In this document: positions 46,001 through 52,322 of the stretch, piece after piece
Position numbering within the stretch: the first letter of the stretch is position 1
How the letters are laid out: each line of letters begins with the position of its first letter
From: Haloferax marinisediminis
Lineage (GTDB): Archaea > Halobacteriota > Halobacteria > Halobacteriales > Haloferacaceae
Assembly: GCF_009674585.1 (NCBI RefSeq)
Contig: NZ_WKJP01000001.1
Coordinates: 1,488,001 to 1,552,000, forward strand
Reading direction: 5' to 3'
DNA length: 64,000 nt
Notes under the pieces: model-generated
What the model was told of the DNA's origin: nothing
Databases searched by the model: none
Seen by the model: the letters and a program-made list of their open reading frames with translations, nothing else
Made by a program: the position numbers and the translations under genes

Positions 46001-46024
46001 CCGAGCGTCGCGTACTTATTGGGT

Positions 46025-46849
46025 ATGGGAATTCTCTCTCGCGCGTCGTACGTCATCCGCTCGAAAATAAACGCCCTCCTCAACCGTGCGGAGGACCCTA
46101 CGGAGACACTCGACTACTCCTACGAGAAGATGCGTGACGAGCTTCAGCAGGTCAAACAGGGCATCGCAGACCTAACGACACAGAAGAAACGACTGGAGAT
46201 TCAGAAGCGACGACTCGAAGAGAACGTCGAGAAGCACAACGACCAGGCACGGCAAGCCGTCCAGCAGGACCGTGAGGACCTCGCGCGCAAGGCCCTAGAG
46301 AAGAAGCAGGCCAAGATGAACCAAATCGAGGAACTCGATGGCCAGATTGCGCGCCTCCAAGAGACACAGGATACCCTCGTCCAGAAGAAAGATGAACTCC
46401 AGAGCCGTATCGAGGAGTTCCGCACGAAGAAGGAGACGATGAAGGCACGCTACGAGGCGGCCGAAGCATCGAGTCGCGTCTCCGAGGCCATGTCCGGTGT
46501 CGGCGACGAGATGGCAGACGTGGGTCGTGCGCTCGAACGTGCCGAAGAACGGACCGACGAGATGGAAGCCCGTTCGGCCGCCATGGACGAACTCATGGAA
46601 TCCGGCGCGCTCGACGACGTCCTCTCGGACAAAGACTCCATCGAGCGCGAACTGGAAGCGGGTCGGACCAACGCGGAAGTCGATGCCGAACTGGAGACGC
46701 TGAAAGCCGAGATGGGCAAATCGTCTGCCCCCGCGGAAGAGGAACCGGCCGAAGAAGCGGAGGTCGACGTCGACGTCGAAGAAGAAGTCGTCGACGAAGA
46801 AGTCGAAGCCGAACTGGAAGAGCTGAAGAACGAAGAAGAGTCGTCGTAA
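46025..46849 (+). CDS. pspA: PspA/IM30 family envelope-stress protein
   Basis: This 274-residue protein is mostly coiled coil (about 25-160 and 170-225), beginning with GILSRASYVIRSKINALLNRAEDPTETLDYSYEKM, the family N-terminus that contains the membrane-binding amphipathic helix. The C-terminal 50 residues are extremely acidic (EEEPAEEAEVDVDVEEE). PspA proteins coat and protect damaged membrane. Haloarchaeal homologs respond to salt and hypo-osmotic stress. The start is supported by the box at 45992-46000. Confidence 0.9.
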   Translation: MGILSRASYVIRSKINALLNRAEDPTETLDYSYEKMRDELQQVKQGIADLTTQKKRLEIQKRRLEENVEKHNDQARQAVQQDREDLARKALEKKQAKMNQIEELDGQIARLQETQDTLVQKKDELQSRIEEFRTKKETMKARYEAAEASSRVSEAMSGVGDEMADVGRALERAEERTDEMEARSAAMDELMESGALDDVLSDKDSIERELEAGRTNAEVDAELETLKAEMGKSSAPAEEEPAEEAEVDVDVEEEVVDEEVEAELEELKNEEESS

Positions 46850-48756: not shown

Positions 48757-49794
48757 TTAGTTCTTCTTCGCGCCAGTTCCCGGACGGTCGAGTGCGTCGA
48801 GGTCGATTGCTCCCTGTGGCATCGGGACACCCTTGTACGGGTCGTCCGCGAGGAGGAGCGACCCATCGAGATCGACGTAGTCGAGAAGCGGTGCGAGGTG
48901 GCACCCAGCGGCGATTGCGGCGTTCGTCTCTATCATACAGCCGAGCATGACTTCGAGACCGTGTGAGCGGGCAGTGTGAATCGCACGCTTCGCCTCGGTG
49001 AGTCCACCCAACTTCATCAGTTTCAGGTTCGCGATGTCGACGCGGTCGGCAATCTTCGGGATGTCGTCGGCCGTGATACACGACTCGTCGGCCGCGATGG
49101 GGAGCGCCGAGTGGTCGTAGACGAATTTGAGACCCTCGTAGTCCTCGGCAGGAACCGGTTGCTCGATGAACTCGACGCCGTAGTCTGCGAGGAACTCGCT
49201 CATCTCGACGGCCTCACGGGGCGTCCACGCCTCGTTGGCGTCGACACGGATAGTCACGCCAGGTGCCTCGTCGCGGACGGCCTCGATGATGGCTTTGTCG
49301 CGGTCGGTTCCGACTTTCACTTTGAGGATGTCGTACCCTGCTTCGTACGCCTCTGCGGTCTTCTCACGAATCGTGTCGAGGTCGTCGAGACCGATGGTGA
49401 ACGACGATGTCGGAGACCGTTCGGGGTCGAGGCCCCAGAGTCTGTAGAGCGGGACGCCGAGTCGTTTCGCAGCGAGGTCGTGGAGGGCGATGCTCACCGC
49501 AGTTCGGGCGGCCGGGTTGCGACGAACCGTCTGCGCCATCTGGCGTTCGATTCGGTCGATTGCGTGGGGGTCACCGACGGCTTCGACGACGTCGAGCAGG
49601 GCGGGAAGGACCGCTTCAACGGTGTCTGCAGTCTCCCCGTAATGAGTCGACGGCGCGGCCGCGCCGACGCCCGTCATCCCGCCTTCGTCTTCGATACGGA
49701 CGACGACGTTCTCGGCTTCCGTCTGCGTCCCACGGGAGATTCCAAACGGGTCGGCGAGTGGCATCGAGATGCGCTCGAACTCGGTCGAGAGCAT
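48757..49794 (-). CDS. Enolase-superfamily epimerase/racemase, DgcA-like
   Basis: This 345-residue protein has the muconate-lactonising/dipeptide epimerase layout: catalytic lysines in LKVKVG (Lys158 and Lys160), metal ligands Asp185 (RVDANEAW), Glu211 (EQPVP) and Asp236 (ADESC), and a second lysine pair in LKLMKLGGL (Lys258 and Lys261). It would be called L-Ala-D/L-Glu epimerase by similarity. It begins directly after the DUF1611 gene stop, and this pair matches bacterial DgcN-DgcA, in which DgcA racemises N-acetyl-D-glutamate. The specificity here is inferred from context. Confidence 0.85.
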   Translation of the reverse strand: MLSTEFERISMPLADPFGISRGTQTEAENVVVRIEDEGGMTGVGAAAPSTHYGETADTVEAVLPALLDVVEAVGDPHAIDRIERQMAQTVRRNPAARTAVSIALHDLAAKRLGVPLYRLWGLDPERSPTSSFTIGLDDLDTIREKTAEAYEAGYDILKVKVGTDRDKAIIEAVRDEAPGVTIRVDANEAWTPREAVEMSEFLADYGVEFIEQPVPAEDYEGLKFVYDHSALPIAADESCITADDIPKIADRVDIANLKLMKLGGLTEAKRAIHTARSHGLEVMLGCMIETNAAIAAGCHLAPLLDYVDLDGSLLLADDPYKGVPMPQGAIDLDALDRPGTGAKKN

Positions 49795-50820
49795 TCAAAA
49801 CACCTCGTCGATGAAGGCTGCGGCGTCCTGCCGGACGGGGTCGACAGCGGGGACACCGAGTTCGTCGGCGAACGCTTCGACCGCTGCGGAAGCCTCGTCG
49901 TCGTCTTCGACGTTCGAGGTGTTGAGCGCGCCACCGACGATATCGGCTTCGTGGACGGGGGCCGCGAGGTTCTCGTAAAGCGAGACGTACTCCGAGAGGT
50001 CAGGAAGCGCGAACGACTCGTAGCCGTGAATCGCCTCGCGGGTGGACTCGTGGCAGAGAATCAGTTTGTCCGCCATCGCGCCGTGGAGGATGCCACAGGT
50101 GACTGCGGAGTACGCAGGGTGGACGATACTGCCCTGCCCTTCGACGAAGAGCACGTCGTACTCGTCGCCTTTCTCCAGAATCATCTCTTCGACCGACCCT
50201 GCGGTGAAGTCGCTCACGACGCGGTCGACGGGGTTGCCCCACCCGGCAATCATGATTCCTGTCTGGCCCGTCGGGATGAATCCTGCGTCGATACCCTGCT
50301 CGCGGGCGGCCTCGACGAGTTCGAGCGTCGCGGTCATCTTTCCGACAGAGCAGTCGGTTCCGACGGTGAGGACGACTTCTGCGTCGACGTCCGCGCTCTT
50401 ACCCTGTGCGACGCCGATGTCGTCGTGTGGCTTGCGAACGTCGTTGATGTCACAGCCGTGTTCGGCGGCGAGTGCGGCGAACTCCTCGTCGTCGTTGAGG
50501 AAGTAGTGAAGGCCAGCGATGATGTCACAGCCGCGTTCGAGGGCCGTCCGAACGTCTTCGCGCCACGTCTCGTCGAACCCGCCACCGATGGGGGCGATGC
50601 CGATGAGGAGGGCATCGGCCTCGGGCGCATCGGCCATCGAAGAGACGATTGGGACGTCTGGGAGGTCACGGCGGTGGTCTGCTGTCGAGGTTCCGGGTTT
50701 GTCTCGGTCGAGGACGGCAACCACGTCGTAGTCGGCGTACTTGAGGACGCCCGTAGCGGTCTTCGCGCGGTCGGGGAACTTCTCGTGTGCGAGGACGACG
50801 ACTCGTTGTGGGTCGCTCAT
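49795..50820 (-). CDS. DUF1611 P-loop protein, DgcN-like (D-glutamate N-acetyltransferase type)
   Basis: This 341-residue protein has an N-terminal Rossmann part (RVVVLAHEKFPDRAKTATGVLKYADYDVVAVLDRDKPG) and a P-loop GTDCSVGKMT (154-163) in a DUF1611 C-terminal domain with FVEGQGSIVHPAYSAVTCGILHGAMADKLILCHE. Bacterial DgcN of this family acetylates D-glutamate. Its stop codon is adjacent to the start of the DgcA-like gene with no gap. A box CTTTTAGGG on the minus strand (50844-50850), about 26 nt before the ATG, forms the promoter of the pair. Confidence 0.8.
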   Translation of the reverse strand: MSDPQRVVVLAHEKFPDRAKTATGVLKYADYDVVAVLDRDKPGTSTADHRRDLPDVPIVSSMADAPEADALLIGIAPIGGGFDETWREDVRTALERGCDIIAGLHYFLNDDEEFAALAAEHGCDINDVRKPHDDIGVAQGKSADVDAEVVLTVGTDCSVGKMTATLELVEAAREQGIDAGFIPTGQTGIMIAGWGNPVDRVVSDFTAGSVEEMILEKGDEYDVLFVEGQGSIVHPAYSAVTCGILHGAMADKLILCHESTREAIHGYESFALPDLSEYVSLYENLAAPVHEADIVGGALNTSNVEDDDEASAAVEAFADELGVPAVDPVRQDAAAFIDEVF

Positions 50821-50843
50821 ACTGGGTGAGACTACGTGCCACC

Positions 50844-50850
50844 CTAAAAG
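50844..50850 (-). promoter_or_regulatory. TATA box of the DgcN-DgcA-like operon
   Basis: CTTTTAG on the minus strand, about 26 nt before the ATG at 50820, fits a leaderless start. Nothing else is seen between 50821 and 50958. Confidence 0.5.
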
Positions 50851-50958: not shown

Positions 50959-51858
50959 TCAGATTCGGAACAGTCGCGTCGTCCAGAACTCACGCGAGGC
51001 CTCTCGAAGGGCCGCCTCGGGGTCGCCACTGGCATCGACCGTCGCGGTCAGTGACGCTCGCTCGCGGAACTCGCCGAGGACCGTCCGTTCGCCGAGGACG
51101 ACGAGGTCTGTCTCGGCGCCGAGGTGGTCGTCGAGGGCGTCGTGACACGCGTCGAGGTGGTCGTCTATCTGGCCCTCACGGATACGTTCGAAGCGTGCCT
51201 GTGAGAACCCTCCTTTCGAGTGTGCCGACTTCACGTCGCTCTCGAACCCCGTCTCGTAGACGAGTTCGTCGTCTTCGTAGTAGCCGAGGGCGAACAGGTC
51301 GGAGCGAACGAGCGCGACCACGGTCTCCGGGGTAGGAAAGAACCAGTCTGTGTCGAGGAGGAACCCGTCGCCCCACGCGTCGAACTGGTCGGCGGAGCGC
51401 GGTGGTGAGAGGGCGACACTCACGAGTCCGGCATCGTCGGTGAGTGCGACACAGGGGGCGGCCCGGCGGACGAGTGACGCACGGTCGCCGAAAGCGGACT
51501 CGACGGCGGACGGAATCGACTGTTCGTCGGTGACGACCGCAGTCAGGGCACCTTCGGGCGCGGTCGAGACGGAGTCGAGGCGACTGACGACCTCGCGGAG
51601 GCGACCACCACGAAGGTCTTCAGTCCCGCGAAAGTCGAGCGAGTCGTCGTCGCCGGAGAGGCGCGCGACTCGGTCTTCGAGTTCAGTGATACGGTCTTCG
51701 AGGCGGTTGACCTCCGCTTCAGCGTTTTGTCGCGCACGGACCGCGTCTTTCCGCCGGTCCGACTCACCTTCGAGGCGGCCTGCTAACGCGTCGCGTTCGT
51801 CTTCTAACTCCGCGATGCGCTCTTTGAGTTCGGCCCGGCCCAACAACTCGTCCAGCAT
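50959..51858 (-). CDS. Vms1/VLRF1-type peptidyl-tRNA hydrolase, archaeal
   Basis: This 299-residue protein starts with a coiled coil (about 7-69, heptads of Glu/Arg/Leu) and has an eRF1-like central domain. The diagnostic loop SKGGFSQARFERIREGQ holds Gln220, the position of the catalytic glutamine of Vms1/ANKZF1. These enzymes cut the peptide or the CCA end from tRNA on stalled large ribosomal subunits. The usual C-terminal ankyrin and VIM parts of eukaryotic Vms1 are missing, as expected in archaea. Confidence 0.83.
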   Translation of the reverse strand: MLDELLGRAELKERIAELEDERDALAGRLEGESDRRKDAVRARQNAEAEVNRLEDRITELEDRVARLSGDDDSLDFRGTEDLRGGRLREVVSRLDSVSTAPEGALTAVVTDEQSIPSAVESAFGDRASLVRRAAPCVALTDDAGLVSVALSPPRSADQFDAWGDGFLLDTDWFFPTPETVVALVRSDLFALGYYEDDELVYETGFESDVKSAHSKGGFSQARFERIREGQIDDHLDACHDALDDHLGAETDLVVLGERTVLGEFRERASLTATVDASGDPEAALREASREFWTTRLFRI

Positions 51859-51956
51859 GCTCGGAAGCGTGCAGGCCGTCCACTTGAGACTTCGGACGTC
51901 GAACGCCTCGGCTACTCGGTGCAGTTGTGCGGGAGGTGTGGCACCGTCAGGTCACG

Positions 51957-52322
51957 TCAGGTCTTTCGACGCGACTCCGAGAGGTCGTCGAGGTCGTACC
52001 CGGCGTATCGGAGCAGTTCTGCCGCACGAGTGGCGTCAGCGAGGAGAACCGGTCTGTCGTCCGGAAGCGTGTTCGGGCCGACTGCATCGCGCGGAAGCAC
52101 GAGCGTCCCTGCAGGAACGCCATCGTCACCAACGACGGGGAAGTGGGCACTGTCGAGTTTCATGACGAGCGGATAGTCGATTCGCTCGACACCACATCCG
52201 GTCGCGTAGACGTGCTCGTTCAACTGCTCGTGTTCGGTACGCTGGATGGCCGCCTCGGTCCCATCGTACGGTTCGACGTACAATCGTCCGAGGTAGTAGC
52301 CGCTGGAGAATCGTTCGAACAT
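51957..52322 (-). CDS. DUF5802-like protein
   Basis: This 121-residue protein begins MFERFSSGYYLGRLYVEPYDG, which I recognise as the conserved opening of the haloarchaeal DUF5802 family. It has no cysteine cluster or membrane segment. The middle is beta-rich (LVMKLDSAHFPVVGDDGVPAGTLVLPRDAV). Function is unknown. A perfect palindrome GTTATCATAAC (52331-52341) lies 9 nt before the start codon. Confidence 0.75.
   Translation of the reverse strand: MFERFSSGYYLGRLYVEPYDGTEAAIQRTEHEQLNEHVYATGCGVERIDYPLVMKLDSAHFPVVGDDGVPAGTLVLPRDAVGPNTLPDDRPVLLADATRAAELLRYAGYDLDDLSESRRKT

Follow-up and report, generated by a model that had tools for sequence, protein, structure and literature searches.

In Haloferax marinisediminis, two adjoining genes on the minus strand of the window, the 64,000-nucleotide stretch of DNA that we analyzed, probably form one transcription unit that encodes a haloarchaeal DgcN-DgcA-like route for D-glutamate, in which the substrates, the donor of the acetyl group, the deacetylase and the origin of the D-glutamate are inferred. 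The first gene (50820..49795, including its TGA stop codon) encodes a DUF1611 protein of 341 residues, a candidate DgcN-like N-acetyltransferase and the only DUF1611 protein encoded in this genome. The second gene (49794..48757, including the stop codon) begins with ATG and encodes a DgcA-like enolase-superfamily racemase/epimerase of 345 residues. At the TGAATG junction (49792..49797, minus strand), the stop codon of the DUF1611 gene is followed by the start codon of the enolase gene with 0 nt between them, so that both reading frames and the gapless boundary described in an earlier sequence-only reading of this DNA were borne out. A putative haloarchaeal TATA box, TTTTAGG (50843..50849, minus strand), lies 29 nt 5' of the DUF1611 ATG, a distance as expected for leaderless promoters in haloarchaea. 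When the loci of the genus were aligned, the box was conserved in 10/10 of them while the surrounding bases varied, and this sequence conservation supports the earlier proposal that a single promoter is common to both genes. A sigma-70 promoter scan, which is ill-suited to archaea, gave no match.

DgcN is reportedly an acetyltransferase and DgcA a racemase, and the pair is said to occur widely in Halobacteria. The window pair resembles this pathway in both protein families, in gene order and tight spacing, and in its P-loop and catalytic motifs. NCBI-named dgcN-dgcA pairs in Vibrio, Pantoea, Sphingobium and Enterobacter show the same order and similarly tight spacing, which argues for the DgcN-DgcA-like reading. 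The two systems differ in that no LysR-type regulator or transporter gene adjoins the window pair, and in that the window proteins remain below the NCBIfam equivalog cut-offs and occupy clades of their own in both trees. Judging from the title of the study that described the DgcN-DgcA D-glutamate pathway, which names halophilic archaea, a finding of this kind in this taxon is already known (Yu et al., 2023, ISME J 17:537-548). That title lends further weight to the DgcN-DgcA-like reading; by the same token, the haloarchaeal occurrence of the route was published in 2023 and our result is mainly a confirmation. The D-glutamate assignment of the sequence-only reading thus stands as the best explanation, but it was not the open inference for haloarchaea as which it had been offered. 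Searches of the literature on D-glutamate or racemases in haloarchaea turned up no additional studies.

The DUF1611 protein has the domain architecture of DgcN, combining a Rossmann-like DUF1611_N domain (PF17396, 104.7 bits) with a P-loop DUF1611 domain (PF07755, 253.1 bits). Its top NCBIfam match was DgcN (NF041892, 266.8 bits), short of the equivalog cut-off of 480, with Vibrio DgcN reaching 555.9 bits on the same model. All motifs of the NCBI-named DgcN proteins, GTDCSVGKM, TGQTGI, EGQGS, LCHE..R and NTS, were present, and GTDCSVGKM, LCHE..R and NTS were missing from a haloarchaeal paralogue described below. An AlphaFold model of the protein (pLDDT 96.4), compared with the PDB (VIA), matched 2obn (Z 43.9), 2g0t (Z 37.5) and 7xrj (Z 36.2) over nearly its full length. 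The last of these is 'N-acetyltransferase DgcN-25328', to which the model aligned over 325 residues with 35% identity; together with the retained DgcN-type motifs, this match argues for the DgcN-DgcA-like reading. The P-loop, GTDCSVGKMT (50332..50361, minus strand; residues 154-163), carries Met162 at the Walker-A Ser/Thr position. Among 48 aligned relatives, G154, G160 and K161 were invariant and Met162 was present in 44/48. With methionine in place of the Mg-binding Ser/Thr, the loop would seem to fit a CoA phosphate better than Mg-ATP, which would likewise favor a DgcN-like function. An ATPase or ligase role, suggested by the BioD/MinD-like fold (Z ~14), appeared less likely because of this substitution. 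In the free tree, the haloarchaeal DUF1611 proteins formed a single clade, largely tracking the haloarchaeal families and separate from the DgcN clade, but a joint clade of the two was not rejected (AU p 0.563). A viral origin of DUF1611 was also considered and set aside, as one scan with a single query sequence found no relative on viral contigs.

The downstream gene product comprises the mandelate-racemase/muconate-lactonizing domains MR_MLE_N and MR_MLE_C and gave a high-confidence predicted model (pLDDT 97.2). Its top NCBIfam match was DgcA (NF042940), with 260.7 bits against a cut-off of 400. The two models for L-Ala-D/L-Glu epimerases scored lower, at 201.3 bits for the YcjG-type (NF011708) and 183.4 bits for the Thermotoga-type (NF041118), and here, too, the protein was below the cut-offs of 343 and 500 bits, respectively. 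That DgcN and DgcA are the top matches, ahead of both epimerase types, argues for the DgcN-DgcA-like reading, and the distance of both scores from the curated cut-offs argues against it. Because both cut-offs were missed and both proteins fall into their own clades, the window proteins are, as judged from their sequences, DgcN- and DgcA-like and not members of the NCBIfam equivalogs.

The KxK motif, a catalytic motif of enolase-superfamily epimerases, is represented by K-V-K (Lys158 and Lys160; 49315..49323, minus strand), and a DxD motif by D-L-D (Asp308-Asp310; 48865..48873, minus strand); the lysines and both aspartates were invariant in our alignments. Including these positions, the KxK, metal-ligand and DxD residues of the epimerase subgroup were all kept (K158, K160, D185, E211, D236, K258, K261, D308 and D310), in agreement with the catalytic residues and family membership noted earlier. 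The enzyme thereby shares its enolase-superfamily subgroup, KxK motif, metal ligands and DxD motif with the L-Ala-D/L-Glu epimerases of the E. coli YcjG and Thermotoga types. It may consequently be asked whether the enolase is a dipeptide epimerase that acts on L-Ala-D/L-Glu, or X-D-Glu, from bacterial peptidoglycan peptides, with the DUF1611 protein acting on those peptides or on released D-glutamate. We consider this unlikely. The DxD motif and Arg21 of the 20s loop are indeed common to the window enolase and YcjG, and the dipeptide epimerases 3jva and 1jpd are among the nearest solved structures by sequence, ranking after 3iji; yet the dipeptide-epimerase models score 59-77 bits under the DgcA model, and no peptidase or peptide transporter gene lies next to the window pair. 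More generally, the window pair differs from L-Ala-D/L-Glu epimerase systems in having no peptidoglycan-peptide genes nearby, and the ycjG locus of E. coli K-12, unlike the window enolase, has no DUF1611 neighbor. Two potential discriminators were rejected. The DxD motif, which in dipeptide epimerases serves the dipeptide ammonium group, was found in every DgcA, YcjG and haloarchaeal enolase examined, with both aspartates invariant, and therefore does not distinguish DgcA from a dipeptide epimerase. The enolase tree was equally uninformative in this respect, as E. coli YcjG fell inside the proteobacterial DgcA clade and the haloarchaeal enzymes formed a clade apart, a placement that argues against the DgcN-DgcA-like reading. 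Because YcjG groups with DgcA and the catalytic and DxD residues are common to both, sequence comparison does not separate an N-acetyl-glutamate racemase from an L-Ala-D/L-Glu epimerase, and the choice between the automatic names DgcA and dipeptide epimerase cannot be made from sequence.

Genome comparison placed the linkage of the two genes far above chance. Among 194 Halobacteria genomes, a DUF1611 match was found in 176 and none in 18, and all of the latter also lacked a close enolase (best E no better than ~1e-33). Both genes were present in 174 genomes, DUF1611 alone in 2 (G021 and G161), the enolase alone in 0 and neither in 18, such that the genes were jointly present or absent in 192/194 (Fisher's exact p 1.8e-23, which overstates independence as the genomes are related). 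Absences were spread over ~10 genera in four families. In all 144 Halobacteria genomes in which coordinates were compared, the enolase gene lay directly downstream of DUF1611 on the same strand, with a median match-to-match gap of 23 bases; in Halovenus and Saliphagus, the enolase gene was found at another genome site, unlinked to DUF1611. This adjacency and joint occurrence confirm the tight linkage proposed from the sequence and argue for the DgcN-DgcA-like reading. In the phylum sample, strong matches were confined to Halobacteria, apart from two genomes of a single family outside it. Directly upstream of the pair, the window carries a VLRF1-type release factor gene and a DUF5802 gene (50959-52322, minus strand). 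A VLRF1-type gene was found just upstream in most haloarchaeal loci examined, often together with DUF5802, and this order was kept in many families. Since the upstream neighbors are mostly retained and the DUF1611 tree largely follows the haloarchaeal families, the sequence data indicate that the pair is old, vertically inherited and fixed in place. Beyond the other end of the pair, ~2 kb from the enolase gene, the window contains a PspA gene (46019-46849). A PspA/IM30-like match also occurred, possibly by coincidence, within ~2 kb of DUF1611 genes that lack a linked enolase in 13 Gemmatimonadota loci (L079, L081, L084, L085, L090, L091, L093, L096, L100, L101, L105, L107 and L120). Where DUF1611 genes have no linked enolase, a Pfam scan of the flanking regions yielded mostly unrelated genes.

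Some haloarchaea, including Halorussus and Haloprofundus, contain a second DUF1611-enolase pair, which shares with the window pair the two-gene architecture and the class of organisms. Its DUF1611 protein is ~40-45% identical to that of the window, has GKR instead of GKM in the P-loop and lacks the LCHE and NTS motifs, whereas its enolase is of the Thermotoga epimerase type, scoring 259.1 and 315.4 bits on the Thermotoga L-Ala-D/L-Glu epimerase model versus 162 and 166.6 bits on that of DgcA. An enolase gene adjoined the paralogous DUF1611 gene in all seven further copies examined, and two plasmid copies, from Haladaptatus and Natrononativus, had no enolase nearby. Several of these pairs lie near peptide transporters and D-amino-acid hydrolases, as illustrated by Haloprofundus, with a D-aminoacylase and an ABC transporter nearby. 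In Halorussus halophilus, the related pair is found among genes for NlpC/P60, DacB, a DAP/ornithine-type decarboxylase annotated lysA and a peptide ABC transporter, a setting that would suit a dipeptide epimerase; however, the Thermotoga-type enzyme belongs to this paralogous pair and not to the window pair. The sequence-only reading had argued that the operon arrangement speaks against a dipeptide epimerase. As DUF1611 also pairs with an enolase of the L-Ala-D/L-Glu epimerase type and YcjG groups with DgcA, this argument is weaker than stated, and a DUF1611 neighbor alone is not enough to rule out a dipeptide epimerase; the existence of the second pair counts against the DgcN-DgcA-like reading. 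The Halorussus halophilus cluster resides on a plasmid (NZ_CP044524.1, 159366-172247, L043, and 171000-185000, L051) and comprises NlpC/P60, DUF1611, dipeptide epimerase, HTH and prolyl oligopeptidase genes, DacB, a five-gene peptide ABC transporter and the lysA-type decarboxylase. It possibly serves the scavenging of bacterial peptidoglycan peptides in an archaeon. At three further loci (L153, L154 and L155, from genomes G009, G008 and G015), the paralogous pair adjoins a second, different enolase-superfamily gene, accompanied in L154 by an Amidohydro_3 (D-aminoacylase-like) gene and a family-5 solute-binding protein gene.

In the proposed D-glutamate route, the DUF1611 protein would transfer an acetyl group from acetyl-CoA onto D-glutamate, yielding N-acetyl-D-glutamate. 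The enolase-superfamily protein, using two lysine bases and Mg2+ to take the alpha proton off and put it back on, would convert this product to N-acetyl-L-glutamate, from which an M20-family deacetylase encoded elsewhere would release L-glutamate. The genome contains 15 M20 peptidase-family matches, and the 14 over cut-off represent candidate deacetylases by sequence. No glutamate racemase above the curated cut-off was found in the genome, the best match reaching 28 bits versus 146.65. Both the presence of deacetylase candidates and the absence of such a racemase argue for the DgcN-DgcA-like reading. In contrast, the window neighborhood contains no transporter, regulator or deacetylase gene beside the pair, and a pathway for optional scavenging would not usually be conserved on the chromosome throughout a class; both points speak against that reading. 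The vertical and nearly universal inheritance of the pair at a single site, with neither transporter nor regulator, would be explained if the pair were core housekeeping of Halobacteria rather than a scavenging system, repairing or recycling D-glutamate, or an N-acyl amino acid related to it, that arises inside cells that have a large glutamate pool and no peptidoglycan; we put this forward as a tentative, rather doubtful proposal. If the D-glutamate route is real, most haloarchaea keep a dedicated pathway for D-glutamate despite having no peptidoglycan, which bears on how bacterial cell-wall matter is turned over in hypersaline waters. Beyond confirming published work, our analysis contributes the class-wide linkage count, the caution over automatic names and the housekeeping question.

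Finally, the pair could employ the same chemistry on another substrate, acting on a different amino acid or with a different acyl group, as in N-succinyl derivatives. The distinct haloarchaeal clades, set apart from those of DgcN and DgcA, are in line with this idea, as are DUF1611 relatives that neighbor other racemase folds, but the window proteins have kept both the DgcN motifs and the Arg21 and DxD residues of Glu-specific enzymes, and we regard a different substrate as quite improbable. The relatives in question are found in Poribacteria (L082), beside the gene of an alanine-racemase-fold protein, and on an Aliiroseovarius plasmid (L045), beside an alanine racemase gene, which suggests that DUF1611 proteins pair with racemases of different folds.
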